IMG/VR virus record: IMGVR_UViG_3300025872_000131
Coordinates: 1-38,740 of that record
Strand: one strand, 5' to 3'
Length of the DNA stretch: 38,740 nt
Source: a virus
In this document: positions 10,316-34,727 of the stretch, one piece after another
Layout of the letters: every line of letters begins with the position of its first letter
Numbering within the stretch: the first letter of the stretch is position 1
The notes under the pieces: model-generated
Told to the model about the DNA's origin: nothing
Seen by the model: the letters and a program-made list of their open reading frames with translations, nothing else
Databases searched by the model: none
Program-made: the position numbers and the translations under genes

Positions 10316-11254
10316 TCAATGCGCAAGATTCATGCGCAACGCGTGGTAATCCTGAAGAAATCCGCTCATGCTGGCAAGTTTGTTGAACGCCATATCTGCT
10401 GACAAACGCGAGTGAAATAAACGCAACTGCGGTCTGCGCTCCATCTCAGCCCAGTAGGTTTGCAAAACCGTACGCCCCCAATCTTCAGCGGTTACGCGAT
10501 TAATGTTGCCGCCAAGATATTCATACCGCATAAACATTTCCCAATCCACAATCCCTAATGTGTGGCGCGGGTTGTCCTTATTGGAGTCTTGGTTTGCGTG
10601 CAAACGAAACGCCCCCAGGTGCGCCCCACCACCTACCGCCGGCCCGTGGCGCGTGGCTTCCAGATACGAAGTCACGTCACCCAAATAATGCCTTGGTGCC
10701 AACTCGCCAAGTGGCGCGTAGGTCATGGTGAATGCGCACTTGGAGCGATCCATCATCACAAACGAAGGCTCGCCAATAAAGTTCTTGTGCATCGCCATCA
10801 AGCGCAGAATGTTCTCGCGCGATGACTTCATCAGTTCATCTTGATTAATAAAGCCTGGTGCGCGAAGAAACCGCCCGGAACCATCAATCCAATGGCGTTG
10901 GTGCCAAAACATCACGGCGTCACGGTGATGATCCGCCAAATCAACTAAGTAAGACGTTGAAGATGGGTAAATTACATCATCGTCATACACAAAGCGCACT
11001 AAATCGGAATCTGCCTGATCCCAAAGATAAGCGTAATGCGCCACCTGATCGCCAGGACAGATAAGGTGTGTGTCAATGACTTCAAAGTCATAGCGCTGCG
11101 CCATATCGTTGATCATGTGGTGGTCATTCTCATCAGGACTGTGATTGCCAATGATGACTTTGATGCGCGGATAGGTCTGCGCGTCAATGCTGGCTAGTGT
11201 CGTGTATAGGTGCTCAGGCTTATAAGCTGGAACAAGAATGGTTACGGGTCTCAT
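10316..11254 (-). CDS. Glycosyltransferase family 2-like
   Basis: The product has 312 residues from the ATG at 11252-11254, which overlaps the upstream stop as ATGA; a TTG four codons earlier is rejected. It begins VTILVPAYKPEHLYTTLASI with DAQTYPRIKVIIGN, the standard GT2 start. The metal-binding DxD motif lies in DLVRFVYDDDVIYPSSTS near residue 90. The rest includes HRDAVMFWHQRHWIDGSG and a C-terminal helical part. It would transfer a sugar from a nucleotide donor; the acceptor is not visible. It sits in the late operon between terL and portal and is transcribed with virion genes, which fits modification of a virion protein or of the cell surface late in infection. Confidence 0.85.
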   Translation of the reverse strand: MRPVTILVPAYKPEHLYTTLASIDAQTYPRIKVIIGNHSPDENDHHMINDMAQRYDFEVIDTHLICPGDQVAHYAYLWDQADSDLVRFVYDDDVIYPSSTSYLVDLADHHRDAVMFWHQRHWIDGSGRFLRAPGFINQDELMKSSRENILRLMAMHKNFIGEPSFVMMDRSKCAFTMTYAPLGELAPRHYLGDVTSYLEATRHGPAVGGGAHLGAFRLHANQDSNKDNPRHTLGIVDWEMFMRYEYLGGNINRVTAEDWGRTVLQTYWAEMERRPQLRLFHSRLSADMAFNKLASMSGFLQDYHALRMNLAH

Positions 11255-11433
11255 GATTTCCCCCAACGCTTACGCTCAAGCTCGGCAAGTTGTACAAGTT
11301 CACGCGTGCGGCGCTCCAGCTCCATCACCATCTCTTCAAGCACTTCCCACTGCAATTTCTCGTACTCGCCTCGTGGAAAGTTCTCAAGCAATCCATTAAC
11401 CCAGGCTTTTCTCGCCATATCGTTCAGGTTCAT
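11251..11433 (-). CDS. Small hypothetical protein (60 residues)
   Basis: This is a highly charged helical protein (MNLNDMARKAWVNGLLENFP, EMVMELERRTRELVQLAELE). No family is recognised. Its stop overlaps the glycosyltransferase ATG as ATGA and its ATG overlaps the previous gene, so it is part of the same translational chain. The C-terminal half is a likely coiled coil. Confidence 0.65.
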   Translation of the reverse strand: MNLNDMARKAWVNGLLENFPRGEYEKLQWEVLEEMVMELERRTRELVQLAELERKRWGKS

Positions 11434-11624: not shown

Positions 11625-11806
11625 GTCAATACCTCCTTAATGTGTTGAGGCACCCTTGGCAGTGGCGCCCAGGCAACCGCCCACTCAGACCAGGTGCCAA
11701 TGACGCACACGCCGCCAGGATTAAGTAGCAATATCTTTACGCCTAGTGGCGGCGGGTCATCTTCGGGCGTGCGCCAGGTGGCCTGGCCGGCGAGGTAGTC
11801 TCTCAC
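11621..11806 (-). CDS. DUF551-like small protein
   Basis: The protein has 61 residues and starts at GTG (11804-11806), overlapping the upstream stop as GTGA. The arrangement TPEDDPPPLGVKILLLNPGG followed by GTWSEWAVAWAPLPRVPQ fits the DUF551 style: W/P-rich, xxPPxGVxVLxx near the start and WxPLPxxP at the end. DUF551 proteins are common phage accessory proteins of unknown function. The assignment rests on pattern memory only. Confidence 0.6.
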   Translation of the reverse strand: MRDYLAGQATWRTPEDDPPPLGVKILLLNPGGVCVIGTWSEWAVAWAPLPRVPQHIKEVLT

Positions 11807-12120
11807 GCCGCCCTTATCCCAAATGGGTTATGCCACAGTACGGGTGCTTTAGGCTTACGCGGCTTAAAGGTCTTGTACTGCTCCTTAACCTCGAAGTAGT
11901 TCACCATCACTTTCTTCCAGGGTATCTCAACGTCTTTTATGCCCTTGGACTTCACAATAAGATCATCTCCCGCCAACTCGGTCATGAGTTGATCAATCCT
12001 TTTGGTGGTCATATCAAACTTTGCAGCCAAATGCCAAGCATTCACAGGGTTCTTCAACCCCTTCAAATAATCAAAAATCATCTTCTTGCTTTCTGATCTG
12101 CGCATTTTTCGTTTCGCCAT
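11803..12120 (-). CDS. Small putative winged-helix DNA-binding protein
   Basis: This 105-residue basic protein starts MAKRKMRRSESKKMIFDYLK. The N-terminal 60 residues are consistent with a helix-turn-helix of winged type (NPVNAWHLAAKFDMTTKRID then QLMTELAGDDLIVKSKG), where a recognition helix is followed by a short hairpin. The C-terminus is basic with KPRKPKAPVLWHNPFG. It directly follows terL in the operon and has a good ribosome site (GAGGGGTAGAA). It could be a late regulator or a packaging accessory factor. The HTH reading is moderate confidence. Confidence 0.6.
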   Translation of the reverse strand: MAKRKMRRSESKKMIFDYLKGLKNPVNAWHLAAKFDMTTKRIDQLMTELAGDDLIVKSKGIKDVEIPWKKVMVNYFEVKEQYKTFKPRKPKAPVLWHNPFGIRAA

Positions 12121-12135
12121 TTCTACCCCTCTCGA

Positions 12136-13554
12136 TTAAACAACTGCCCTCAAATTCCTTTTAATTGGCTTGCCCCACTGTGAGTTGTAAGCCTTCCCGT
12201 ACAACGCTGTTCCTGCATCGCTCGCAAAGGTCAACGCCAAAGCATCAGCCATATCAGGCGATCCAATCCCGCGCTTTCTCATCTCGTCTTTGCTCTCTAG
12301 CTTCATCTTCCCGTTGCTATTAAACGAATAGCGTGGCGAAACTAATTCCGCCAATAACGACTCATCCTTAGGTATCTTGCAATCGCGCTTTTCCAACCAC
12401 GCCTTCATCTTTCCCCATAGCTCAGCACGCAAATTCACATAAATCGTTCCCATGGCGGGAGACTCAGCCACGTTAATCCCACGCGCAGGCAGATTCAATT
12501 CGCGCAAGCGGTCCACAACGCCGGCCCCTAAGCCAATCGAATCGACAAGGATTTCAACGGGCCTGTCTTCTGGCTTCATGGCCTCGTACTCAGCGACCAC
12601 CGCGCCCGTGGTTTGCATCAAATCCAACCCTCGCCACTTGCGTATCTCAGTCACCGCATTACCTTTACGCTTTGCCAACGCCGTGGCGTCCGTCCCAAAT
12701 CGCGCTACATCCAAACCCCACACCGTTTGCGTGTCCGTCGTTTCAACATCACGGTGAAAAGCGCTGTCCACCAGCTCAACGCCAATCAAGGTATCGTCAT
12801 CGGTACGCGGAAACTCACCCAACACGCGAACACGGAAAGCGTTGGATTCTTCGCCATACCTTGACGCCATATCCTTGATATAGGCGTCGCTAACCCTTTT
12901 AGAGTCATAGCAGGACACGCGACGTGTCCACCACTCATCCTTCAATCGGTTATGCGTGTCAAAGAAAAACCCGCTGGACTTCGTTGGGTTACCCAACAAA
13001 ATCGTCACAGCGTTATGCCCCGACATGGAACCCGCCGCCGCCTCGAACACGGACTCAGGAATCCCTGATGCTTCATCCGCCACAAGCATCACATGGTCCG
13101 AATGCACACCCTGCAACGCTTCAGGTTGCTCGGCACGCGATGTACGGGCGGAGATGAACGACTCTTGAGGCGCCGCACGCATCTCAATGCGATCGGTCTT
13201 AACCTCCAAACGATCACCCCAAGCATTAGGCAACTCTTTCACCCAACGCTTTAGCTCGGCAAATAGGGCGTCGTACAACTGGCTCGAAGTCGGCGCAGTC
13301 ACCACAATCTTTGCAGGACCGCGCGTTAGCATGTACCAAATCATCGCCCAGGAAGCCACCGTGGACTTCCCAACACCGTGGCCGGAGCGCACGCTGATCT
13401 TGCGCTCGCCGCGGGATATGGCCTCCAAAAACTCCACTTGCCAAGGGTCAGGATCAACCCCCAACACTTCGCGCACAAACAACGGCGCGTTGGGCCTGTA
13501 GCGGCGCACCAGCTCAAGGTAGCGCTTAAATATTTCGTTATTAGGCGTGTTCAT
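12136..13554 (-). CDS. terL: Terminase large subunit
   Basis: The product has 472 residues, the usual size. Walker A is SGHGVGKST at about residues 57-65 and Walker B is MLVADEAS with D160/E161; LLGNPTKSSGFFF is a coupling motif region. The RNaseH-like nuclease domain has its three acidic sites in VWGLDVARFGTDATALAKRK, EILVDSIGLGAGVVDRLREL and a final D in GIGSPDMADALALTF. It pumps DNA into the procapsid through the portal and cuts concatemers. The ATG at 13552-13554 overlaps the recombinase end by 14 bases; a GTG five codons upstream would also be in frame but lacks an advantage. Confidence 0.95.
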   Translation of the reverse strand: MNTPNNEIFKRYLELVRRYRPNAPLFVREVLGVDPDPWQVEFLEAISRGERKISVRSGHGVGKSTVASWAMIWYMLTRGPAKIVVTAPTSSQLYDALFAELKRWVKELPNAWGDRLEVKTDRIEMRAAPQESFISARTSRAEQPEALQGVHSDHVMLVADEASGIPESVFEAAAGSMSGHNAVTILLGNPTKSSGFFFDTHNRLKDEWWTRRVSCYDSKRVSDAYIKDMASRYGEESNAFRVRVLGEFPRTDDDTLIGVELVDSAFHRDVETTDTQTVWGLDVARFGTDATALAKRKGNAVTEIRKWRGLDLMQTTGAVVAEYEAMKPEDRPVEILVDSIGLGAGVVDRLRELNLPARGINVAESPAMGTIYVNLRAELWGKMKAWLEKRDCKIPKDESLLAELVSPRYSFNSNGKMKLESKDEMRKRGIGSPDMADALALTFASDAGTALYGKAYNSQWGKPIKRNLRAVV

Positions 13555-14221
13555 AACTTGCCACCGCACGATGCACCAAGGTATGCGTCACCGCCATACC
13601 AAACTGATCCTTCACCATCTCAGCAATCTTGCGATAGCTCTTGCGCTCTTTGGCTTTGTCCGCCATAAACATCAAGATGGGATAGGTCGATTCATCCTTC
13701 ACAAGTTTGGCCGACTTGCCATCACCATCCTTACGAAACCCAAACGGCACATGACCGCCAACCCAACCACCGGCTTGCGCCTTACTCTTACGCCCATCAG
13801 CCATGCGCTCTGCAATCCTGCGTCGCTCAAGCCTAGCCACTGCCGCCATCAACGTAAAGAAAAACTCAGACCAGCTCGACCCATTGTTCACCGGGTCCGT
13901 ACCCAGGGCCAGCACAATCATCTTAACGCCTTGCTCCTTCCAAGCCTCGGCCATCGTTAACGCGTCAACCGTGTCACGAAACGCACGATCCAATTGCGTC
14001 ATAACCACCACATCACCTGGCTGAAGTACCGCCACTAAACGCGAACCCGCTTCACGCTTGGCAAGTTGCACGGAACCGCTCACACCTTCATCCGTAAACA
14101 CCTCGCCCACATCATCGCCGCGAATCAACGCCAATCCCTGAATCTTCCTAATCTGCTCGGCTAGCGACGTGTTGTCTATCTGCTCCTGCGTACTAACCCT
14201 TGCATAACCATAAACCGCCAT
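13541..14221 (-). CDS. Serine recombinase, resolvase/invertase size
   Basis: The product has 226 residues. The N-terminal catalytic domain starts MAVYGYARVSTQEQ with nucleophile Ser10; conserved arginines appear in MTQLDRAFRDTVDALTMAEA and ARLERRRIAERMADGR. The long E helix and a C-terminal helix-turn-helix (SYRKIAEMVKDQFGMAVTHT) follow. The length matches resolvases and invertases rather than large serine integrases. It could resolve genome multimers, invert a segment or act as a transposon-type recombinase. It sits, unusually, between terS and terL and overlaps terL. A dyad GTTAC-N11-GTAAC (14239-14259) just upstream may be its operator or site. No inverted-repeat segment is seen around the fibre gene in the window. 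Confidence 0.9.
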   Translation of the reverse strand: MAVYGYARVSTQEQIDNTSLAEQIRKIQGLALIRGDDVGEVFTDEGVSGSVQLAKREAGSRLVAVLQPGDVVVMTQLDRAFRDTVDALTMAEAWKEQGVKMIVLALGTDPVNNGSSWSEFFFTLMAAVARLERRRIAERMADGRKSKAQAGGWVGGHVPFGFRKDGDGKSAKLVKDESTYPILMFMADKAKERKSYRKIAEMVKDQFGMAVTHTLVHRAVASYEHA

Positions 14222-14238
14222 CTCGTTCCCCTGTTTTC

Positions 14239-14259
14239 GTTACTTGTTGCAAGCGTAAC
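14239..14259. promoter_or_regulatory. Inverted repeat upstream of the recombinase gene
   Basis: GTTAC at 14239-14243 and GTAAC at 14255-14259 flank TTGTTGCAAGC, where TTG and CAA extend the symmetry. It lies 18 bases before the recombinase ATG. Placement suits an operator for autoregulation or a recombination core, but no functional evidence is visible. Confidence 0.4.
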
Positions 14260-14283
14260 AGTGTTTCGCTCACTTGTGAAAAT

Positions 14284-14547
14284 TTTTTTGGGGGCCGTTC
14301 GTCGGGGCGATGGGCGGTGTAGGGGGGGGCGAAGCACAAGTTGGCGGATTGCAGCGGCAGGGCACAAAACAACGGTTGCAGCGGCAGGGCACAATTGCCA
14401 GGTGTGCGAAGCACAAGTTGGCGCGTGTGGAGTGCCGCCGAAACTCCGCCCCGTCGATCTGCTGACGGGGGGGGTAATCGGTCAGATTGTCAGTTTTTGC
14501 GCGTTTGCGCGACAATTGGTGCGTTTGGTAAAGCGATCAAGACGCGG
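14284..14547. repeat. Noncoding GC-rich repeat region between terS and recombinase (candidate packaging site)
   Basis: This part of the 326-base gap has no convincing gene. It holds two exact interleaved direct repeats: GCGAAGCACAAGTTGGCG at 14329-14346 and 14406-14423, and TTGCAGCGGCAGGGCACAA at 14349-14367 and 14376-14394. Two G8 tracts occur at 14322-14329 and 14467-14474. G-runs at 14290-14294, 14304-14307, 14311-14314 and 14322-14329 could form a G-quadruplex on the plus strand. Repeated motifs just after terS, the usual place of pac or cos sites, suggest small-terminase recognition; a role in recombination or replication is also possible. Open frames here are compositional shadows. Confidence 0.6.
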
Positions 14548-14964
14548 TTAATCATGCTGCGTTGCATCAATTGTCAGTGCTTCGGTTTGCTTGATCGCGT
14601 GCCAAGCTTGCGAGTCGATGTTTATCGCCACGACTGGCGCGCGATTCTCTGCCCATGATCGCGGATCAAGGCGCGCAGCAAACCATTTGCGCGTATCAAC
14701 GCGCAACCGCGGATCGTCTTTCGCCTCGTCGGCAATCGTCAGCGCCTCCTCCGCCAGCGCCGAAGCTCGCTCCTCGCGTGCGCGTGTGTACTGAGCGCTG
14801 CGCTCCGGCGCCAGTAGCCACCTATTCAAATGCCCTTGTTTTACTCCAATGCTTTCGGCTATAGCCCGGACACTTTCGCCAGCGCTTATACGCTCGAGAA
14901 TCTCCTCCTCGCCTATCTTTTCGATAACCGCAAGCGCTGCCCGCTTTTGTGGTTGTCCCGCCAT
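14548..14964 (-). CDS. terS: Terminase small subunit (Sf6-like)
   Basis: The protein has 138 residues. An N-terminal helix-turn-helix covers roughly residues 17-50 (EEEILERISAGESVRAIAES, then IGVKQGHLNRWLL). A central oligomerisation helix with REERASALAEEALTIADEA follows, and then DDPRLRVDTRKWFAARLDPR, a sequence characteristic of the Sf6-type small terminase. It recognises the packaging site and regulates TerL. The separation from terL by a recombinase gene is uncommon. ATG at 14962-14964 has GAGGGG seven bases upstream. It is the first gene of the presumed late operon. Confidence 0.85.
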   Translation of the reverse strand: MAGQPQKRAALAVIEKIGEEEILERISAGESVRAIAESIGVKQGHLNRWLLAPERSAQYTRAREERASALAEEALTIADEAKDDPRLRVDTRKWFAARLDPRSWAENRAPVVAINIDSQAWHAIKQTEALTIDATQHD

Positions 14965-15075
14965 ATAAACCCCTCAATGGTTGAAATTGTCCGACAAACG
15001 GATGCTACGCCAACAGTTAATTATGATATTGTTTCGCTTGCAGTATCAATCGAAACACTAAAAGGAGTCTTAATC
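14965..15075. promoter_or_regulatory. Divergent control region between terS and the plus-strand island
   Basis: This 111-base gap separates genes read in opposite directions, so it must hold at least two promoters. Besides the minus-strand promoter, it contains TTGTCCGACAA (14987-14997), a near-palindrome sharing GTCCGA with the iteron-like array at 17367-17555. A GTTTCG-N14-CGAAAC dyad lies at 15031-15056. The plus-strand promoter is not clear: TTGAAA (14981) has a poor -10, and TATGAT (15022) has a poor -35. Confidence 0.55.
15020..15049 (-). promoter_or_regulatory. Sigma70-like promoter for the late operon (terS onward)
   Basis: On the minus strand, a -35 of TTGATA (15049 to 15044) is separated by 18 bases from a -10 of CATAAT (15025 to 15020). 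Each hexamer differs from consensus at one position. It points at terS, 56 bases away. It is embedded in a dyad GTTTCG/CGAAAC (15031-15036 and 15051-15056), suggesting repressor control. The same -10 hexamer occurs in the promoter at 24825-24853. Confidence 0.6.
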
Positions 15076-15384
15076 ATGAAACGCATTATCAACGGAAAAG
15101 TTTATAACACTGAGACAGCGGAAAAGGTTGCATTTTGGGACAATGATCTATTTGCGAATGATTTTGGTTACATGTCAGAAGCGCTCTATGTAACGCGCAA
15201 GGGCAATTATTTTATACACGGCAAAGGAGGAGCAACAAGTAAGTATGCAACGCACGCCTATGGCGGGCGCATGGCGGGAGAAAGTATTGTTGCCATAGCC
15301 GAAAAAGACGCTCTCGAATGGTGCGAAACAAGAGAAATTGATACTGAGATTGTGTCTTCGCATTTTGAAATTGAAGAAGCATAG
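15076..15384 (+). CDS. Conserved accessory protein of phages and plasmids (102 residues)
   Basis: The gene starts at the ATG at 15076, ten bases after AAAGGAG; the longer open frame upstream is noncoding. The product reads MKRIINGKVYNTETAEKVAF, with later ALYVTRKGNYFIHGKGGATS and EKDALEWCETRE. This pattern (KRIxxGKxYxTETAExVxxWDN, LYxTxxGxxFLxGxGGAxSxYA) is a widespread hypothetical family on bacterial mobile elements. The function is unknown. It and its two followers are the only genes on this strand and look like an accessory cassette. Confidence 0.85.
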   Translation: MKRIINGKVYNTETAEKVAFWDNDLFANDFGYMSEALYVTRKGNYFIHGKGGATSKYATHAYGGRMAGESIVAIAEKDALEWCETREIDTEIVSSHFEIEEA

Positions 15385-15398
15385 AAGGAGCCAATATC

Positions 15399-16130
15399 AT
15401 GCGCAAGCCAAACGGATTTGTTTTTTATCGCGGATTCTCGCCAATCGATCAAGCGCCAATCGTCGGGATCGCGGTTTTTGAGTCTAGCAATGTCAAAACC
15501 GGGAACATGGTTCAAACGTACATCATTCGATCGGATGTAAACCCTATTACTGCCGTCAATACTGGCAAGGATAAAAGCATTTGTGGCGATTGTGTTCACC
15601 GCGGCAATGAAAGCCAAAAGCGAACATGCTACGTTGATTACTCCAAAAGCGTTAACGCGGTTTATAAAGCTTTCGAGCGCGGATCCTATCCCGATTTTTC
15701 GCACAATGTAAAGCTTGCAGCGCTCTGGTTAAAGAATCGCAAGGTTCGTTTAGGCGCCTATGGCGATCCCGCCATGATTCCCGCGGAAAATTGGCTTGAA
15801 TTGCTCGAGCTCGCCAGTGATTGGACCGGTTACACGCACCAATGGCGCGAACCCTTCGCACAATCGCATCGTGAGCTGTGCATGGCAAGCGCTGACAGTC
15901 TTAGCGATCGCGACGTTGCGCGCGCTATGGGCTGGCGCACTTTTCGCGTCATCCCGATCGGATCAGCGCTTAAGCTTCAAAACGAAGCAATTTGCCCCGC
16001 CAGCCTCGAGGGTGGAGACAAAAAACAATGCATCACGTGCGGAGCATGCGACGGCGCTTTAAAGCCAAGCGCTGCATCAATCGCTATTGTCGTACACGGA
16101 AAATCAGCAAAACAATTTGCGGAGGTTTAA
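15399..16130 (+). CDS. Conserved phage protein with Cys clusters
   Basis: This 243-residue protein has a strong ribosome site (GAAGGAGCCAATATC before ATG). Text such as MRKPNGFVFYRGFSPIDQAP, DKSICGDCVHRGNESQKRTC, VRLGAYGDPAMIPAENWLEL and DWTGYTHQWREPF matches a family I recall in many phages and plasmids. Cysteines come in two groups: CxxC with a third Cys near residues 62-77, and CPAS...CITCGACDG near 200-218. The spacing suggests metal or iron-sulfur binding, reminiscent of radical-SAM/ferredoxin style clusters, but no catalytic motif is clear. The function is unknown. The stop is followed by the small membrane ORF. Confidence 0.85.
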   Translation: MRKPNGFVFYRGFSPIDQAPIVGIAVFESSNVKTGNMVQTYIIRSDVNPITAVNTGKDKSICGDCVHRGNESQKRTCYVDYSKSVNAVYKAFERGSYPDFSHNVKLAALWLKNRKVRLGAYGDPAMIPAENWLELLELASDWTGYTHQWREPFAQSHRELCMASADSLSDRDVARAMGWRTFRVIPIGSALKLQNEAICPASLEGGDKKQCITCGACDGALKPSAASIAIVVHGKSAKQFAEV

Positions 16131-16133
16131 GCC

Positions 16134-16211
16134 ATGCAAGCTTTAATTGATTGGACCATAGCACTAATTTTTGGCGTCGCACTCGCGTGCGCGATTTTTT
16201 TTAACCTTTGA
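16134..16211 (+). CDS. Tiny putative membrane peptide (25 residues)
   Basis: The frame reads MQALIDWTIALIFGVALACA then IFFNL. It is almost one transmembrane helix. A GGAGG lies ten bases before the ATG, and a rho-independent terminator follows 20 bases after the stop, so it sits properly at the end of the plus-strand operon. Similar single-helix peptides occur as toxins or membrane modulators, but no family can be named. Confidence 0.55.
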   Translation: MQALIDWTIALIFGVALACAIFFNL

Positions 16212-16231
16212 AAATGATTGACATTTAACCT

Positions 16232-16253
16232 AAGCCCTTCGGGGCTTTTTTTT
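16232..16253 (+). terminator. Rho-independent terminator of the plus-strand island
   Basis: AAGCCC, loop TTCG, GGGCTT, then a run of eight T (16246-16253). The stem has six pairs with a stable UUCG loop. It closes the three-gene plus-strand unit. Confidence 0.9.
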
Positions 16254-16659
16254 CGCGCGCCAAGCGCTTCGCGCACTGGCGCCATTTTGCGTTATTGATC
16301 GCCAAGCGCTTTGCGCACTGGCGCACTGCGCACGCCTAAGCTTTACGCTTGGCGCTTGCATGCGCTCGTCGTAATACTTTGAAGGATAAAGCCATAGAAT
16401 CGCCGACAATCGATTTTCTCAAAAGCATGTAGGGTGATAGCCATGGCCCTAAAAAATCGCCTACAAGGGCGCTTTCCGCGCGCCTATGGCTACGCCAATG
16501 CGCCAATGAAGCCTAAGCGCCATTTCGTAGGCTTTGCATCACGTCGCATGGCTATAGTGGAGAGAAACGCGCAAACACGATGAACCAACACATAGTTACG
16601 CTTAAGCGCAACCCCCATATTAATGTCTTGATAACAATCAAAAAGATAAGATTTAGTTT
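16254..16659. repeat. Noncoding stretch with 24-bp direct repeats between convergent operons
   Basis: About 400 bases lie between the plus-strand terminator and the end of the minus-strand early operon. A 24-bp unit with GCCAAGCGCT at one end and GCACTGGCGC at the other occurs at 16259-16282 and 16301-16324 with one difference (C/T). A partial inverted copy, CGCTTGGCGC, lies near 16337-16346. AAGCGCTT is itself a palindrome. The second half holds a possible small basic ORF. Repeats between convergent units may be an origin, a packaging or recombination site, or transfer remnants; nothing decides among these. Confidence 0.6.
16443..16583 (+). CDS. Possible small basic protein (46 residues), uncertain
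   Basis: An ATG at 16443 opens a frame of 46 residues rich in Arg and Lys (MALKNRLQGRFPRAYGYANA, then PMKPKRHFVGFASRRMAIVE). A weak purine element (AGGGTGATAG) precedes it. A second frame starts at 16580 in an ATGA overlap but runs into the convergent gene. Neither has a recognised homologue. It could be chance coding in a repeat-rich gap. Confidence 0.25.
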   Translation: MALKNRLQGRFPRAYGYANAPMKPKRHFVGFASRRMAIVERNAQTR

Positions 16660-16676
16660 TCAATCCATTGAAAACT
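16655..16676 (-). terminator. Hairpin at the end of the early operon (weak terminator)
   Basis: AGTTTTCAA and TTGAAAACT form a perfect 9-bp inverted repeat with a four-base loop, overlapping the stop codon at 16660-16662. The following minus-strand sequence is A/T-rich (AAATCTTATCTTTTTG) but lacks an immediate T-run, so termination would be partial. Confidence 0.45.
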
Positions 16677-17325
16677 TTGATTGCTCCATAGCCTTTAACG
16701 CGTCCTTGCTCAACGCGTAAGCCTGATCACTGCTTCCCTTGTACACCGGACCAATATCTTCTTCCGCCATCAGCGTCAACACCTCAGCGCCAGGCATTGC
16801 CCGTTTAATGCTCACCGCCTGCGTGAAAAATTCCTGCTGCAAGATAACCGCCACCTCATCCATCGTCCAGCAGTCGCACTCAGGTCTCATTGCCGCGTAG
16901 GCGTGGACAGTTGCCGGATCAGCGCAAATCGCAAACACGCTCCCGTCATCCCGTTGACCCTCCATAACACTTACCGCCAACGGTTGAGCGTTCATCGCCT
17001 TTGCTTCAGCCTCCAACACGTCATAAGCCCGCATCATCCCGCCACAAGCCAACCTATACGCCTCAACGTCTCTCGCTTTCCTCGCATCCCTACACCGCCA
17101 TAACTGCTTCCAAAACCTTAACCGCGTTTCCTCGCTCACGAGTTCCGCCAAACGATCCAAACCCCAAACCTTATCCGCCTCACGCTTCCGCTTCATCACA
17201 CTGACCGCCACACTATTCATCGCCAACACGATCTGGTCATCCTCTTCAAAAGGATTCTTCAACCGATCCTCTGATCCGCCATACAAACCATCTCTAACCT
17301 TTCCGCGCTTATCTTTTGCCGCCAT
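16660..17325 (-). CDS. Hypothetical protein, last gene of the early operon
   Basis: The product has 221 residues from the ATG at 17323-17325, which has AAAGGA ten bases upstream; an extension of nine codons with a poor start is rejected. Text: MAAKDKRGKVRDGLYGGSED, VMKRKREADKVWGLDRLAEL, WKQLWRCRDARKARDVEAYR. The N-terminal half is basic and helical. The C-terminal part (DDGSVFAICADPATVHAYAA, SIKRAMPGAEVLTLMAEEDI) is mixed alpha/beta. No family is recognised. It follows the iteron-like array, so a replication or copy-control role is possible from position only. Confidence 0.75.
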   Translation of the reverse strand: MAAKDKRGKVRDGLYGGSEDRLKNPFEEDDQIVLAMNSVAVSVMKRKREADKVWGLDRLAELVSEETRLRFWKQLWRCRDARKARDVEAYRLACGGMMRAYDVLEAEAKAMNAQPLAVSVMEGQRDDGSVFAICADPATVHAYAAMRPECDCWTMDEVAVILQQEFFTQAVSIKRAMPGAEVLTLMAEEDIGPVYKGSSDQAYALSKDALKAMEQSKFSMD

Positions 17326-17355
17326 AACCCAAATCCTTTCTCTACAAATCACACA

Positions 17356-17562
17356 TCAAACATCAAGCGTCCGAAACATTGAAGCGTCCGAATGTGTGTC
17401 TTTCAGACACACACACATTTCGGACGCGTTCACTTCTTGTTCTACAACGCTTTCGGACAACTTCGTACGCGTTTTCGGACGCTTAAAGGACAAAACATCA
17501 ACTTTAGGACACCCTAATTCGGACGCCAAAACATCACTTTCGGACATTCGGACGCTTAACAT
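17356..17562 (-). CDS. Possible 68-residue protein overlapping the repeat array
   Basis: The ATG at 17560-17562 overlaps the primase-helicase stop as TGATG, the same coupling used by many genes here, and the frame is open to 17356. The product (MLSVRMSESDVLASELGCPK, then VDVLSFKRPKTRTKL) has no recognised family. The DNA repeats fall in different reading frames, so they are not a protein repeat. The open frame may be accidental over a cis-acting array, or the array may be embedded in a gene. Confidence 0.35.
   Translation of the reverse strand: MLSVRMSESDVLASELGCPKVDVLSFKRPKTRTKLSESVVEQEVNASEMCVCLKDTHSDASMFRTLDV
17367..17555. repeat. Iteron-like array of TTCGGACGC (candidate origin or operator cluster)
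   Basis: Six exact copies of the 9-mer TTCGGACGC or its complement lie at 17367, 17384, 17419, 17474, 17518 and 17547. Shorter or variant copies lie at 17452 and 17539 (TTCGGAC), 17462 (TTCGTACGC) and 17504 (TTAGGAC). The first two are inverted relative to the rest. Two more exact copies are inside the primase-helicase gene (18307, 18321). Dense short repeats beside a RepA-like helicase gene are the layout of iteron origins; an alternative is a repressor-binding cluster controlling the last gene. Confidence 0.75.
17384..17427. repeat. Large hairpin within the iteron array
   Basis: GCGTCCGAA (17384-17392) pairs with TTCGGACGC (17419-17427); inside it TGTGTGTCT (17393-17401) pairs with AGACACACA (17405-17413). 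The loop is TTC and a five-base bulge CACAT lies at 17414-17418. Eighteen base pairs in total could extrude as a cruciform or fold in RNA. No T-run follows on either strand, so a simple terminator is less likely than an origin or regulatory structure. Confidence 0.7.
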
Positions 17563-19634
17563 CAAAATCCTTCCTGATTAATCGGCTTGATCCACACCAA
17601 ATCGTTTCTTATGGCGGCAAACTCAAGCTCAACTAACTTGTCCTTCACCTCCTTCCAACGCTTCCGCTTATCGCTATCCTCTACATCATTCCCTAGCCTG
17701 GCGTACACCTCATCCCGCCAACGCTCTAACGTCACCACGCGATGGCGTTCCCCTTGAACGATCTGGTATTGCCCTTCCGTCTTCACGATATGGCGTAACG
17801 CTTCCCTACCCATCGATTGATGCTTACCGCGTCCTGCGTTCGGCTTTGCGTTTTGTGGCGGTCTAAAGCCAACGCCATCGGGTAATTCACCCTCGAATGG
17901 TTTGACTACAAGCGTATTGGCCGAGTCATCCTCAAACCCCAAGTTGAGCTTGGCGGCTGACGTTTCATGCGTTTCGTTCGTTTCCTGCTGATCAAAGTTC
18001 ACCGTTTCCATGGAGAAATGAATCTCCACACCATCCTTGCCATCCTTTTGCTTGGTTACACGCAACGTGCCCGACATTTGATCTGTATGGCGGGTAATCT
18101 CAATCTGCGTATCCACAGCACCTAAAAAGCTGGAGTGACCGCGTAGACCTAATGAGGCATCCTTGCCACTATGGTGGACAACGAGCAACGCTGCGCCCGT
18201 GGCTTCTTGCAGGCGTCCACAATTGCTGATGAAACTGCCCATGTCCTCGGACGCGTTCTCGTTGCCGCCGCCAAAGGCGCGGGCCAAGGTGTCAATGATG
18301 ATCAATTTCGGACGCTGGATTTCGGACGCTCGTATGGCGGCTATCAAGTCAGCAAAATCCTGATCCGATGACCTTAAGTTAACTTGCGACCTGATCACGC
18401 CAACGGGTATGTCCTTGAGTTCATACGCATGGCGTAAACCCGAAATCCTTGTCCCAATACCGCCATGGCCTTCACCCGCGATGTATAAGACTTCACCGGC
18501 TTGCGGCACTTCGTGCGCCAGCCACGAATCCCCACTGGCGATCATGGCGGCTAAGTGCAGCGCGATAAACGATTTGAACGTGCCTGGAGGCCCATAGAGC
18601 GCCATAAATCCCTTCTCCGGCACAATCCTATCCACCAACCACTTAACCGGCTCATCCTTCGCGTCACGCCACATCTCAACCCTGTAGCGTTGCGCTTCCT
18701 GCGCTTCAACCACTTCGGCAAACGGTTCCTTCTCAGGCACAACGGATTCGGGTTCCGTCTCGGCTTTCTCATCAATCACTAGTCGCTGTGGCGGCTCAAC
18801 GTCCTCAAAGTCCTCAACCACTTTGGCTTCGGCAATGCGCCTGGCGAACTCCTCAAACGTAAACCCTCGTCCGATAAACTCTTCAGCGTCATCGCCAATG
18901 GCTGACTCGTCATCGGCTAAATCAACCACCTTGATCGCTTGCGCTACACCCTGCAAGTCCCTAACGACACGTTTGGCGTACTTCCAACCAGGTCTATCGT
19001 TATCCGGCAGCACAACCACCAATCGACCATGAAACCATGGCGTTATGGCGGCAGGCCATTCGCTCGAACCCGCGTGCGCCGATATGGCGACCACATCGAA
19101 CATGCCAACCAAAAACTCAGCGGCCTTTTCGCCCTCGGTCACAAATACCGGCGCCATGGGTCTTGCAATCATGAGCGGTAAGCCAAACGGTATGGGCGTC
19201 CAATTGCGGATCGTTGGTACGCGCTCGCCATTGATAAGGTGATATTGGCGATAAGTCTTACCTCCACCTTCAACGTCATACCTGACCTTTTGCGCCGTGA
19301 CTTCACCGTTTTCATCGATGTAATCCCACGCCATCACTTCTTTCATCGTTGACGGAACTATCGGCCTGACACCCGATAAAGGATCACGCGCAACCAGCGG
19401 GCGGTTCCAGTTCAACGAATTAGGCAAGTGCGGTTTGATGGCGGCAAACACATCCTCTTGATCGCACCCGCCAAAGCACTTGAATAGAAACTTCTCACCG
19501 AGTTGCGTAATCGCAAGCGATGGATGCCGATCACCCTTGCCATTGCCATGCCCGGGTACCGGGCAAGACGCAAGCCACCCCCTCTTGTAGCGCTTGGCGT
19601 TACCAAGCGCTGCGGCTAATAGTTCTGCGTTCAT
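17562..19634 (-). CDS. Primase-helicase (zinc finger, TOPRIM, RepA-like AAA+/RecA ATPase)
   Basis: The product has 690 residues. Residues 20-60 form a CHC2-like zinc finger (C24, H29, C53, C57). A TOPRIM-type fold follows, with VFVTEGEK (E168) and VVVLPDNDRPGWKYAKRVV (D211, D213). A linker around 275-320 is acidic. The C-terminal ATPase of the RepA/AAA_25 group has Walker A GPPGTFKS (348-355), Walker B KLIIIDTLARAF (D448) and LLVVHHSGKDASLGLRGHSS. It would unwind DNA and prime replication. No DNA polymerase gene is visible, so host polymerase is presumably recruited. The stop overlaps the next ATG; ATGA overlap with NeuD-like gene upstream. Confidence 0.9.
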   Translation of the reverse strand: MNAELLAAALGNAKRYKRGWLASCPVPGHGNGKGDRHPSLAITQLGEKFLFKCFGGCDQEDVFAAIKPHLPNSLNWNRPLVARDPLSGVRPIVPSTMKEVMAWDYIDENGEVTAQKVRYDVEGGGKTYRQYHLINGERVPTIRNWTPIPFGLPLMIARPMAPVFVTEGEKAAEFLVGMFDVVAISAHAGSSEWPAAITPWFHGRLVVVLPDNDRPGWKYAKRVVRDLQGVAQAIKVVDLADDESAIGDDAEEFIGRGFTFEEFARRIAEAKVVEDFEDVEPPQRLVIDEKAETEPESVVPEKEPFAEVVEAQEAQRYRVEMWRDAKDEPVKWLVDRIVPEKGFMALYGPPGTFKSFIALHLAAMIASGDSWLAHEVPQAGEVLYIAGEGHGGIGTRISGLRHAYELKDIPVGVIRSQVNLRSSDQDFADLIAAIRASEIQRPKLIIIDTLARAFGGGNENASEDMGSFISNCGRLQEATGAALLVVHHSGKDASLGLRGHSSFLGAVDTQIEITRHTDQMSGTLRVTKQKDGKDGVEIHFSMETVNFDQQETNETHETSAAKLNLGFEDDSANTLVVKPFEGELPDGVGFRPPQNAKPNAGRGKHQSMGREALRHIVKTEGQYQIVQGERHRVVTLERWRDEVYARLGNDVEDSDKRKRWKEVKDKLVELEFAAIRNDLVWIKPINQEGF

Positions 19635-20287
19635 CTAGGCGCCGCCGGATTGCCTTGCAGCACAATGCCTTCGTGCACCGGACCTTTGAAGTCATGGCGG
19701 ACAATGGACCCTGCTGAAATCTTCACGCGATTGGCGATTTGCTTGCCTGGCAGTACATAGGACCCAATACCCATGATCACCGCCACGCCAATCACGCAAT
19801 CCCCGCACACTTCCGTATTCGGAAACATCGTTGTCCATGCGTGAATTACCGAGTCATGCCCAACCGTTGCATTGGTATTCATAAACACAAAATCGTTGAT
19901 CCAGGCATCCGCTGTAACGATCACTTGCGGTGCTAAAACGCATCCCTTACCAATCTTCGCGTATGGCGATACCGTACAAGTGCTGTGTATGTACGTTCCC
20001 CATCTTTCTTCGTTCTTAGCAACAATGGCTTGCTTTGCATCGGGGTCCGCCACAGCCAGCAGGAATTCAGCACCAGGAAACGCGCCCTCTCGAATGCTTT
20101 CCACCACGGGATACTTGGCGGCATAACGCTTATTGTTAAACGGTTGCGTTGAAACCACGCACACAATCTCGTGCGTGCCTTCTTCCTCGATGTAGCCAAT
20201 CAATTCCTTGGCAAGCCCTCCTGAACCAAAGATGACGTACTGGTTTTTGCGCTTTGCCTTTTGATACATATTGTGATCGCCGCTCAT
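19631..20287 (-). CDS. NeuD/PglD-like sugar O/N-acetyltransferase (left-handed beta-helix)
   Basis: The 218-residue protein begins with a Rossmann-like domain (NQYVIFGSGGLAKELIGYIE). It continues in hexapeptide repeats of a left-handed beta-helix (IGKGCVLAPQVIVTADAWIN, FMNTNATVGHDSVIH, CVIGVAVIMGIGSYVLPGKQ, ISAGSIVRHDF), ending LQGNPA as these enzymes do. The catalytic-type His is in NATVGHDSVI. Known members acetylate nucleotide-sugar amines or sialic acids. With the neighbouring aminotransferase and methyltransferase it suggests synthesis of a modified amino sugar. The start uses AAAGGGG upstream. Confidence 0.85.
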   Translation of the reverse strand: MSGDHNMYQKAKRKNQYVIFGSGGLAKELIGYIEEEGTHEIVCVVSTQPFNNKRYAAKYPVVESIREGAFPGAEFLLAVADPDAKQAIVAKNEERWGTYIHSTCTVSPYAKIGKGCVLAPQVIVTADAWINDFVFMNTNATVGHDSVIHAWTTMFPNTEVCGDCVIGVAVIMGIGSYVLPGKQIANRVKISAGSIVRHDFKGPVHEGIVLQGNPAAPR

Positions 20288-20731: not shown

Positions 20732-21041
20732 GATTCTTTTCCTTCAAGGCTTGCTCAACGGCGCGGTAAAAACCAAAACAATCAAACCAAGGTGAATTGC
20801 TTGCATCAATTTTTTGAGATAGATAAATCAAGTCATGGATTTCTTCATCCGTCAGACCAACCCATTCACGCTTTGGCGGTACCGTGTACACAGGTTGCGG
20901 GCTAAACACTTTGTCCTGTGGCTTTTTGCGAAAGTACACATGCCCGGTGCCAGTTGTGTGCATCCACGCCACAGGCTTTTGCTCTGTCTCCAGTAATTGG
21001 CAGCAATGCCCGCACCTTGGACATTCAAAGTCTTGATTCAT
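20724..21041 (-). CDS. Conserved hypothetical phage protein with CxxC-like N-terminus
   Basis: This 105-residue protein has FECPRCGHCCQLLETEQKPV at the start, which looks like a small zinc knuckle. It continues VAWMHTTGTGHVYFRKKPQD and KREWVGLTDEEIHDLIY. The KPVAWM and REWVGLTDEEI blocks are typical of accessory proteins in betaproteobacterial phages. The function is unknown. It is coupled upstream by ATGA with the methyltransferase and overlaps the next gene. Confidence 0.8.
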   Translation of the reverse strand: MNQDFECPRCGHCCQLLETEQKPVAWMHTTGTGHVYFRKKPQDKVFSPQPVYTVPPKREWVGLTDEEIHDLIYLSQKIDASNSPWFDCFGFYRAVEQALKEKNHG

Positions 21042-21673
21042 TGATCACCCCCTAAAAGTTTTTGGACAATAAAGCAATTGCCATCCGTAAATGATGGCTG
21101 GAAACCCCTAGCGCCTAACGTGTTTGGCAGCGTTCCATAAACACGGAAAGCAGACGGATTCAGTGCTTCACTAATATCGTTCACGGCTTGCTTTACCTCT
21201 GGCGAATACTTTTCATCGTTGTAATCATCAAAAACTATCCACCCGCCAGGCACTACAAGTTGGCTGTACATTTCCCAATCTTGCTTGACGCCATCACCCG
21301 TGTGATCACCGTCGATAAAAAGTACATCAACACTTAAATCGCTAACACGCTCAAATGTCTCTTTTTGGTGGGAATCGCCAAGTACATAACGAAAAGTGTT
21401 TTTATTGGGATTGTTCGCTTTGACGTTTGCCTCAACAACCGATTGCGGAATTGGAGCGCCAACATCAATACTGACTGCGTGCATCCGATCTTTTTGCAGC
21501 ATCAAAATCGCACTTGCCCCGGCATAGCAACCAATCTCCAAGTAAGTTGGTCGATGTACGCTAGGCAACGGCAAGTCATAAAGAATATGAAAATGATGAT
21601 GAAATGTTTGGTTTTCTATGCGATCAGAAATGCGCCTAACGATCTCTAAAGATTCAATCGTTGGCGTAATCAT
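21038..21673 (-). CDS. Class I SAM-dependent methyltransferase (Methyltransf_24-like)
   Basis: The product has 211 residues. Motif I is YLEIGCYAGASAI (residues 44-56). A motif with the SAM ribose-binding acid is in HAVSIDVGAPI, and VDVLFIDGDHTGDGVKQDWE followed by LVVPGGWIVFDDYN is characteristic of the Methyltransf_24/cephalosporin-hydroxylase-like group used on sugars and small molecules. It is bracketed by ATGA overlaps with the aminotransferase and the Cys protein. With its neighbours it probably modifies a sugar intermediate or a glycan; DNA methylation is unlikely because no DPPY/NPPY motif is present. Confidence 0.85.
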   Translation of the reverse strand: MITPTIESLEIVRRISDRIENQTFHHHFHILYDLPLPSVHRPTYLEIGCYAGASAILMLQKDRMHAVSIDVGAPIPQSVVEANVKANNPNKNTFRYVLGDSHQKETFERVSDLSVDVLFIDGDHTGDGVKQDWEMYSQLVVPGGWIVFDDYNDEKYSPEVKQAVNDISEALNPSAFRVYGTLPNTLGARGFQPSFTDGNCFIVQKLLGGDQ

Positions 21674-22311
21674 CGATCACTCCCAAACGCGTAAATCGGA
21701 AACTTGGACAAATCCGGATAGCTCATCTCAATGTCCTCCATCACCTTTGGCGAACCATCACGATGCCAGAATTGATTCATAAGCAATAAGCCACGCGCTG
21801 CTACATCAGGCATCATGTAAAAATTCCAGCCGATCATGTCGAAATGATCATCGTGATAGGAACACTCACGCCGCCCGCTGAAACGCGCACGCTTAAACCA
21901 CAGCATGGCGGCATAGTCATCAGTGAGAATCGCACCGCCCTTGCCCAGCTTTAAGTGCTTGTACGGTCCTGTAAACGACACGCACATATGCGAGCCTTTG
22001 ATGTACATATTGGAGGTAAACGACAGCGCAGCATCCCACACACGCGTCGGTGCAAGCTGATACGCGCCCTTAATCGTTCTTCCTTCAACCGGATAAAAGT
22101 CAACCTTTGCGCCGGCATGAATCACTTCGCAAGGCACGCCTGGATAAGTTCTTGCCGGTAGCCTGATCGTCGTTCCCGCCACACGTTCATAGGTCAACGC
22201 TAAGAACAAAGCGTTGCAGCAGTTATCTACCGCCACACAGTATGGTGCACCGGTGTACTCGGCAACCTTTTCTTCAAACGATTCCGTTATTTTGTAAACG
22301 CCATCTGCCAT
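21670..22311 (-). CDS. DegT/DnrJ/EryC1-like sugar aminotransferase (short form)
   Basis: The product has 213 residues against 360-400 for typical members. It keeps the PLP-binding core: YCVAVDNCCNALFLAL, RVWDAALSF (D93 for the pyridine nitrogen) and SFTGPYKHLKLGKGG with K118 as the probable Schiff-base lysine. A late FKRARFSGRREC segment resembles the substrate region. The C-terminal domain is largely missing. It would aminate a keto-sugar nucleotide, feeding the NeuD-like acetyltransferase. The shortness may mean a minimal phage version or loss of activity. It starts after the terminator at 22332-22360 with AAGGGGATGAC as ribosome site. Confidence 0.8.
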   Translation of the reverse strand: MADGVYKITESFEEKVAEYTGAPYCVAVDNCCNALFLALTYERVAGTTIRLPARTYPGVPCEVIHAGAKVDFYPVEGRTIKGAYQLAPTRVWDAALSFTSNMYIKGSHMCVSFTGPYKHLKLGKGGAILTDDYAAMLWFKRARFSGRRECSYHDDHFDMIGWNFYMMPDVAARGLLLMNQFWHRDGSPKVMEDIEMSYPDLSKFPIYAFGSDR

Positions 22312-24853: not shown

Positions 24854-25064
24854 CGAAACGCTCAATCACCCAAGTGCGCATCCACAATGGGCGCATGGTT
24901 TGTTTGGCGTGCCGCTCTTCAAGCCATGTCGTTGTCCTTGTTATGCCTCCAGGTGCAACCCAGTGATAGGGTTTGACGTAGTGCGGCACATAAGGCATAC
25001 CCTCCAACATGTATACTGGCATGGGATGCAATTCTGCTTTCTTGTCGCTGTTGTTGATGTTCAT
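24831..25064 (-). CDS. Small hypothetical protein (77 residues)
   Basis: The ATG at 25062-25064 overlaps the upstream glycosyltransferase stop as ATGA; an ATG four codons earlier is possible. The product reads MNINNSDKKAELHPMPVYML, then EGMPYVPHYVKPYHWVA and ends WVIERFVETTQDL. It is rich in Pro, Tyr, His and Trp. No family is recognised. Its 3' end overlaps the promoter of the next gene. Confidence 0.65.
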   Translation of the reverse strand: MNINNSDKKAELHPMPVYMLEGMPYVPHYVKPYHWVAPGGITRTTTWLEERHAKQTMRPLWMRTWVIERFVETTQDL

Positions 25065-25744
25065 TTGCCTTGCCATTTATCTAAGTAACGCTGCGCTGAT
25101 TCTTTCCACGTCGGACCCATCAAGCCTTGACTGTGATGGATGGCGGAAATCGATGACACATAAATTGACAAACCTTTCTCTGTGAATTGGCGGCAAATGT
25201 CCATGTCGTAATGATGAAAGGTGAATTGCTCATCAAACTTTATATCGTTGTCATGAAACGTCTTCGAGTAAGCCGCCATAAACAAACCGTCAATCAGAGA
25301 CACTTGACGATTAGGCGATGCAAACACATCCCAACTTGTCAAATACTCGCCGTTGCCACGCGCTACGCAACCGGCCCATGATTGGCGATCAGATAACGTG
25401 CCTTCCATGTCCGTGATGGCCCATGATGTTTGACCTGGTGATGGCTGACAGTTACCCGCCAATCCAACCAGGTGATGATCATCAAGTGACGCACCTAGAC
25501 GCATGTACCAATACCAGTCGACAATCTCAACGTCATCGTGCACAAATACGAGTAACGCCGGCTCGTTCTTGGCGGCTTCAATCGCTTCGTTATAGCGTTG
25601 GCACAATCCTGCCGTGTTGTTAGTGAACAGTTGCGCCTCAATAAATGACAGATGCGCAAAGCGTTGAATCGTTACGCCTAGCGGTGTTCCTGCAAAATCT
25701 TTTCTGTTATGGCGAGTACACGCCACAATCCTTATCGGTATCAT
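25061..25744 (-). CDS. Glycosyltransferase (Glyco_tranf_2_5-like)
   Basis: The 227-residue protein has PIRIVACTRHNRKDFAGTPL at the start, ALLVFVHDDVEIVDWYWYMR with an HDDV-type metal motif near residue 68, and VSLIDGLFMAAYSKTF followed by DEQFTFHHYDMDICRQFTEK near the C-terminus. This DG-FDE-H-x-YDxD arrangement is characteristic of Glyco_tranf_2_5. The sugar donor is unknown. It is coupled by ATGA overlaps to the preceding glycosyltransferase and to the small gene after it. Confidence 0.88.
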   Translation of the reverse strand: MIPIRIVACTRHNRKDFAGTPLGVTIQRFAHLSFIEAQLFTNNTAGLCQRYNEAIEAAKNEPALLVFVHDDVEIVDWYWYMRLGASLDDHHLVGLAGNCQPSPGQTSWAITDMEGTLSDRQSWAGCVARGNGEYLTSWDVFASPNRQVSLIDGLFMAAYSKTFHDNDIKFDEQFTFHHYDMDICRQFTEKGLSIYVSSISAIHHSQGLMGPTWKESAQRYLDKWQGK

Positions 25745-34517: not shown

Positions 34518-34727
34518 TCACATCGTTGTGGCGCTCAACGCGCCAACATTGGAAACGGTTAAGTAGTAACGCGTCCCATTGGGCGAACGAATGACAAGTT
34601 TTTCATCTTGCCCAAGTTCAATATCAACGTTCTTTTTACGATTCAACGCGTCAGCCAATTCAAGCGCACGTCGCAGCGACAACTGGTCAGCCGTATCGTA
34701 TTCGAGCGTTGGGCGCTGAAGTTTCAT
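34518..34727 (-). CDS. Small hypothetical protein (69 residues)
   Basis: The protein reads MKLQRPTLEYDTADQLSLRR, then ALELADALNRKKNVDIEL and VIRSPNGTRYYLTVSNVG. An N-terminal helix and C-terminal beta hairpin are likely. ATG at 34725-34727 overlaps the nozzle stop as ATGA. No family is recognised. A small virion component is possible from the neighbours. Confidence 0.7.
   Translation of the reverse strand: MKLQRPTLEYDTADQLSLRRALELADALNRKKNVDIELGQDEKLVIRSPNGTRYYLTVSNVGALSATTM

Follow-up and report, generated by a model that had tools for sequence, protein, structure and literature searches.

The C-terminal domains of SaPI Rep and SCCmec Cch2 bind iterons that are located directly downstream of the helicase gene (PMC7581432). 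In Gram-negative PICIs the pri-rep-ori region supports plasmid maintenance, and the pri-rep-ori of EcCICFT073 works as a replicon; the same study stated that the origin organisation of PICIs is found in no other known bacterial replicon (PMC6092414). Phage P4 alpha carries primase, helicase and origin recognition on one polypeptide (Ziegelin 1993, cited in PMC8628076). P4 alpha has other types of helicase and primase than the protein described below and needs a second site, crr. The oriV of RSF1010 (IncQ) contains iterons plus hairpin ssi sites, and IncQ plasmids use a separate iteron binder, RepC. The iterons of phage lambda form part of the O gene, and the O protein depends on P for recruitment of the host helicase.

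Here, we analysed the complete 38,740 bases of the IMG/VR virus record IMGVR_UViG_3300025872_000131 (the window), which stem from a podovirus-like phage with genes for portal, scaffold, major head, DNA-ejection, terminase and S74-type tail proteins. A serine recombinase gene (integrase/invertase-like, 13541-14221) overlaps the 5´ end of the gene for the terminase large subunit, and sugar-modification genes were found at 19631-20287, 21038-22311, 25061-25744 and 10316-11266; this set comprises a hexapeptide acyltransferase just before the primase, a methyltransferase, a DegT aminotransferase fragment and two glycosyltransferase-like proteins. The locus of interest consists of the following features:

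17367 to 17555, both orientations: iteron-like array with eight GTCCGAA cores, six of them within the 9-mer GCGTCCGAA
17384 to 17427, minus strand: hairpin of two inverted iterons (GCGTCCGAA / TTCGGACGC), based on folding and compensatory changes
17562 to 19634, minus strand: 690-aa primase-helicase with a primase-like N-terminus, an AAA_25/RepA-type helicase (residues 322-493) and a C-terminal winged-helix domain
17589 to 17837, minus strand: C-terminal winged-helix domain (about residues 600-682), the proposed reader of the array, based on an AlphaFold2 model and covariation
16660 to 17352, minus strand: next gene, 230 aa (221 from ATG), no family, following the array in this phage family only

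As in the SaPI/PICI Rep-ori systems, the array is located immediately 3´ of the initiator helicase gene, and the primase is fused or adjacent. As to the reading of iterons by a C-terminal domain, covariation and co-exchange of domain and motif were observed here, from which binding is only inferred. In contrast to the SaPI, PICI and Cch2 helicases, which are of the DUF927 or D5/Primase_Cterm type (PMC7581432), the window helicase has a RecA fold of the AAA_25/RepA type, so that this feature of the known systems is not met. PICI origins contain two iteron sets flanking an AT-rich region, whereas the window has one continuous array with an AT content of 54-56% (about 45% in the surroundings) and no clearly AT-rich melting region is apparent. 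The carriers also differ, being tailed phages and phage-plasmids. Since the helicase fold is different, we regard the locus as the same kind of device on another machine and not as a member of the SaPI/PICI families.

The window protein is like P4 alpha in combining primase, helicase and, putatively, origin recognition on one polypeptide, but unlike P4 with its ori and crr the window phage has no second array. With RSF1010 it shares a RepA-type hexameric helicase (distant profile match to 1G8Y, E 4.9e-11), and the combination of iterons and a hairpin recalls oriV with its ssi sites. In contrast to IncQ, the iteron binder appears to be fused to the helicase, which is an inference; no RepC was recognised among the scanned window proteins, small ORFs being only partly covered. 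As with lambda O and its ori, phage iterons would be read by a phage initiator, although this reading is inferred here.

The array occupies the entire 209-bp gap from the primase-helicase stop to the next gene. The sequence-only reading had claimed six exact copies of a 9-mer in 17367-17555, two of them inverted, and this count of TTCGGACGC held exactly. It had also claimed at least four variant copies; variant sites are present as GTCCTAA at 17504, GTACGAA at 17462 and GTCTGAA at 17402. The sites are mostly on the minus (coding) strand, with the two inverted ones at 17367-17375 and 17384-17392. Outside the array, exact TTCGGACGC occurs at three window positions (10235, 18307 and 18321). The last two form a pair (18307-18329), 14 bp apart inside the helicase coding sequence, that is retained in close relatives and missing in the group with 63% identity. 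Counted over the whole window with up to one mismatch, the 9-mer is ordinary (14 found versus 10.4 expected), but its clustering is exceptional: GTCCGAA, with eight copies in 210 bp (nine with GTCCTAA), is the most clustered 7-mer in the window, and in 100 dinucleotide shuffles of the window 7-mer clustering was never above two copies. The sites are short (7-9 bp), occur in both orientations and are irregularly spaced (8-33 bp), and thus are not classical plasmid iterons; the array fails the criterion for a classical iteron plasmid origin, namely 17-22-bp direct repeats with regular spacing. The earlier suggestion of an iteron-like origin beside the primase-helicase is supported by the comparisons below, and origin firing remains an inference.

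The two inverted iterons had been proposed to form an 18-bp-paired hairpin. The hairpin held, with 19 pairs and a 4-base bulge; a GT/AC stem joins the two iterons around a GAA loop. The whole gap has a fold z-score of -5.9 as DNA and -5.3 as RNA. Among relatives the hairpin is nearly invariant, and where changes are present they are mostly found on both sides: compensatory double changes occur at four pairs in nine distinct relatives, and 95% of cells are paired. Sliding the partner strand as a control on the covariation destroys the pairing. Base-pair covariation of the hairpin is shown by these data; its role is inferred, probably that of a single-strand structure needed when replication begins, with priming and loading as examples of what it might do. 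A different hairpin, CCC-[AT]-GGG, was observed within or next to the array at 25 of 74 loci (L145-L245 set, 330 bp after the helicase stop) versus 3 of 404 upstream windows. Its presence in many other arrays suggests a second shared element, perhaps a single-strand initiation element.

The same primase-helicase is encoded at 73 loci with 63-99% identity. All relatives that were readable past the stop have the array at this position. In 17 representative relatives it contains 4 to 12 forward sites and one or two inverted sites; the motif GTCC[GT]AA is constant, but the sites turn over in number and spacing. Ten larger relative records have one array per genome, with no second array found. No relative of the primase-helicase was recovered from bacterial genomes, and a nucleotide search against annotated phages gave no match.

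Arrays at the equivalent position are not restricted to this family. The window helicase is distantly related to helicases of many phages, among them Rhizobium phage 16-3, in which GCGTGACA occurs 11 times beginning at the stop of p101, and Roseobacter phage CRP-811, with 11 copies of CTACAAA after the helicase. Among loci collected as relatives of these two, the best repeat cluster was at the helicase 3´ end in 8 of 8 and 66 of 75 loci. The motifs are many and unrelated (CCAGACA, GGGACAA, CCATACA, GTCCTAA, ATGTGAA, GTATGAA, TGTAGAA, CGTACCA, CGTAACA, ATACCAA and others). A uniform survey counted copies of one 7-mer within -60 to +300 of the stop at 82 AAA_25-helicase loci and in 1136 background windows. 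Six or more copies were present at 59 loci versus no background window, five or more at 75 loci versus two background windows; the remaining seven loci (four copies or fewer) have a weak array or none. Since near-identical contigs and eight loci of the window's own family are included, the 82 loci are not independent cases; dereplication of the strong loci leaves 45. The primase part varies, being TOPRIM-like in the window phage, Prim-Pol in 16-3 and N65 and a separate Toprim gene in Methylobacterium currus. The next gene after the array differs between families, leaving the helicase as the constant neighbour.

Of six circular plasmid-listed elements examined, five have an array:

Caenibius p1, a 38-kb phage-plasmid: TGCGGAA, 12 copies
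Klebsiella 17-kb element: TGCCGCA, 6 copies
Methylobacterium currus element: CGCAACA, 8 copies
Xanthobacter element: CGGGACA, 7 copies
pMRAD08: ACCGGAC, 6 copies

No array was found at the helicase locus of the sixth, a Polaromonas plasmid. Terminase or tail genes are present on three of these elements, which therefore appear to be phage-plasmids. Because such circular elements must own an origin, their arrays count in favour of an origin function. The Klebsiella element (CP018459, 17 kb, circular) encodes an integrase and a capsid protein beside the AAA_25 helicase with its TGCCGCA array, and resembles a capsid-bearing satellite or island more than it does a plasmid. A different location was observed in a podovirus-like record from Manatee Spring (MW202711, L141), where a cluster of GAACGTGCG at 34545-34720 does not follow the stop but is part of the repA coding sequence, ahead of the region for the helicase, which recalls lambda O with its iterons in the gene.

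An array is absent at the helicase 3´ end in RedMaple, TPA2, Velene, Superphikiman, Nibbles, Vibrio 1258 and two Guernseyvirinae; the first three of these encode DNA polymerase I. In these eight array-less phage relatives the winged-helix profile is unmatched or at noise level, whereas most array-bearing relatives match it. RHph_N65 (GGCGGAGAT) and Caenibius p1 (TGCGGAAG) have arrays with another kind of C-terminus; their C-termini resemble each other (28% identity, E 4e-11), and the motif core GCGGA is common to both.

Which part of the protein reads the repeats is indicated by motif and C-terminus changing together. In pairs with 90-97% identical helicase domains, the C-terminus is on average 74% identical if the motif is shared and 46% if it is not, while the corresponding values for the N-terminus are 81% and 75%. 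These pairs are not independent of one another; after dereplication, the excess C-terminal identity in same-motif pairs was reached in 0 of 5000 permutations, phylogeny not being modelled. The exchange can be seen directly by sequence comparison of L158 (CTACAAA) and L167 (GTCCTAA), which share 87% identity between -2917 and -313 and once more beyond +216 but cannot be aligned in the interval, showing that a block of about 530 bp containing the C-terminal domain and the array was exchanged. Such two-sided blocks were found in 20 pairs, with left bounds mostly between -280 and -340, in a few cases between -100 and -180, and right bounds between +175 and +450. By comparison, the alignments of L145/L235, L162/L159 and L206/L211, which are pairs with a shared motif, continue through this region without interruption. 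The C-terminal domain adjoins the array, and recombination linkage therefore contributes to the co-exchange; nevertheless, high identity returns just beyond the array, which argues that the block acts as a unit. Thus, equivalent arrays with other motifs exist in unrelated elements, and their motifs covary and are co-exchanged with the C-terminal domain.

As the motif varies together with the C-terminus of the helicase, we infer that the repeats are probably read by this domain of the 690-aa protein. Both this protein and the downstream one (221 aa from ATG) had been proposed as binder; the latter was rejected because unrelated genes occupy its place in other families. For the last approximately 100 residues of the helicase, AlphaFold2 predicts a winged-helix fold (pLDDT 82, pTM 0.70), and Foldseek matches of this domain in the PDB are mostly winged-helix proteins, all weak (best E 0.009). 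The assignment of the N-terminal primase-like TOPRIM region rests on PHROG matches and motif inspection.

Taken together, we consider it very likely (probability about 0.85) that the array is the replication origin of the phage and consists of iterons to which a self-contained primase-helicase binds with its C-terminal domain; binding, helicase loading and origin firing are inferred. The primase-helicase encoded just upstream would bind the GTCCGAA sites through its winged-helix domain, gather on the array as a RecA-fold (RepA-type) hexamer and melt or thread the DNA there, the winged helix thereby placing the helicase at the origin. Its own primase-like N-terminus would start synthesis, and a host polymerase would continue; no phage DNA polymerase was recognised.

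Several observations count against an origin or do not clearly support it. The GC-skew switch that the sequence-only reading had named as a check failed to appear: around 17.4 kb, the whole-sequence and third-codon-position skews show only a local extreme without sign switch, and the array does not coincide with a genome-scale switch. Minus-strand GC3 skew is 0.30-0.57 just left of the array and mostly 0.05-0.24 to its right, a difference in the expected direction but not decisive. For the minus genes at 11803-17352, this third-position skew (0.30-0.57) is unusual in its height, and it has dropped to about 0 at 11.2 kb. A lone DnaA-box-like site is located at about 22.36 kb, 5 kb from the array. 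Further points against an origin are the lack of a clearly AT-rich melting region, the RepA-helicase loci with weak or no arrays, the other C-terminus type of RHph_N65 and Caenibius p1, the weak Foldseek matches, and the AlphaFold2 model of the full-length protein (pLDDT 61.5), which is too poor to use.

The array could instead be a transcriptional operator, on which a phage regulator controls the downstream gene while replication starts elsewhere. The array is located in a gap before a co-oriented gene, and repeated operators are common in phages. However, no sigma-70-like promoter was found in 16.5-20.5 kb (0 versus 3.8 expected) and nothing promoter-like at the array, different families share the helicase but not the gene that follows the array, and the motif covaries with the helicase C-terminus. 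We consider this explanation very unlikely, but it might be possible that the initiator autoregulates at the array as a second role.

The array might also act as RNA, as a structured leader or terminator in which proteins bind to stems formed by the repeats. Folding of the strand as RNA is much stronger than that of shuffles (z -5.3), and the hairpin contains compensatory changes. Against this, no T-run terminator was found at the array or hairpin, an Rfam search of the array region matched no family, most equivalent arrays elsewhere do not form a single large hairpin, and only short repeats in both orientations are kept. There is thus very little room for this reading.

The array might also serve in packaging (pac/cos) or partition (centromere), with terminase or a ParB-like protein as the binder. 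This would agree with terminase genes 2.6-5.4 kb away and with the repeats, which are typical of such sites. However, the constant neighbour across families is the helicase and not terminase or parA/parB, and the motif follows the helicase C-terminus, making this reading highly improbable as well.

Functionless low-complexity or coding repeats are all but excluded: a single 69-aa ORF spans the array, but chance is excluded by shuffles and background windows, and the ORF is not conserved while the motif outlasts the turnover of sites. In many relatives the longest open stretch is down to 27-43 codons, and the ORF matched no family; a conserved peptide over the array was rejected, and the possibility that the repeats are merely codons of a conserved small protein, which would have refuted the original proposal, does not apply.

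A bolder reading goes beyond the origin of this phage. The loci might represent a widespread and apparently undescribed class of phage origins, in which a RepA-type primase-helicase, a C-terminal winged helix and a matched downstream array are exchanged as one specificity cassette. Co-infecting phages, plasmids and satellites may compete through their origins (incompatibility), and selection to avoid this may be what drives the exchange. We put this forward tentatively and consider it somewhat less likely than not. A search of the open-licence literature found no report of such an arrangement with RepA-type helicases, which does not prove the absence of a prior description.

The analysis provides a rule by which a probable origin and its reading domain can be found in many uncharacterised phages and phage-plasmids, namely by inspecting the sequence after the stop of the AAA_25 helicase. 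The origin organisation described for phage-inducible islands is now also seen on an unrelated helicase. With about 25 different motifs and their matching C-terminal domains, the DNA specificity of winged helices could be decoded from a natural data set, and because domain and array are exchanged so cleanly, incompatibility of origins among phages, plasmids and satellites can be tested directly.
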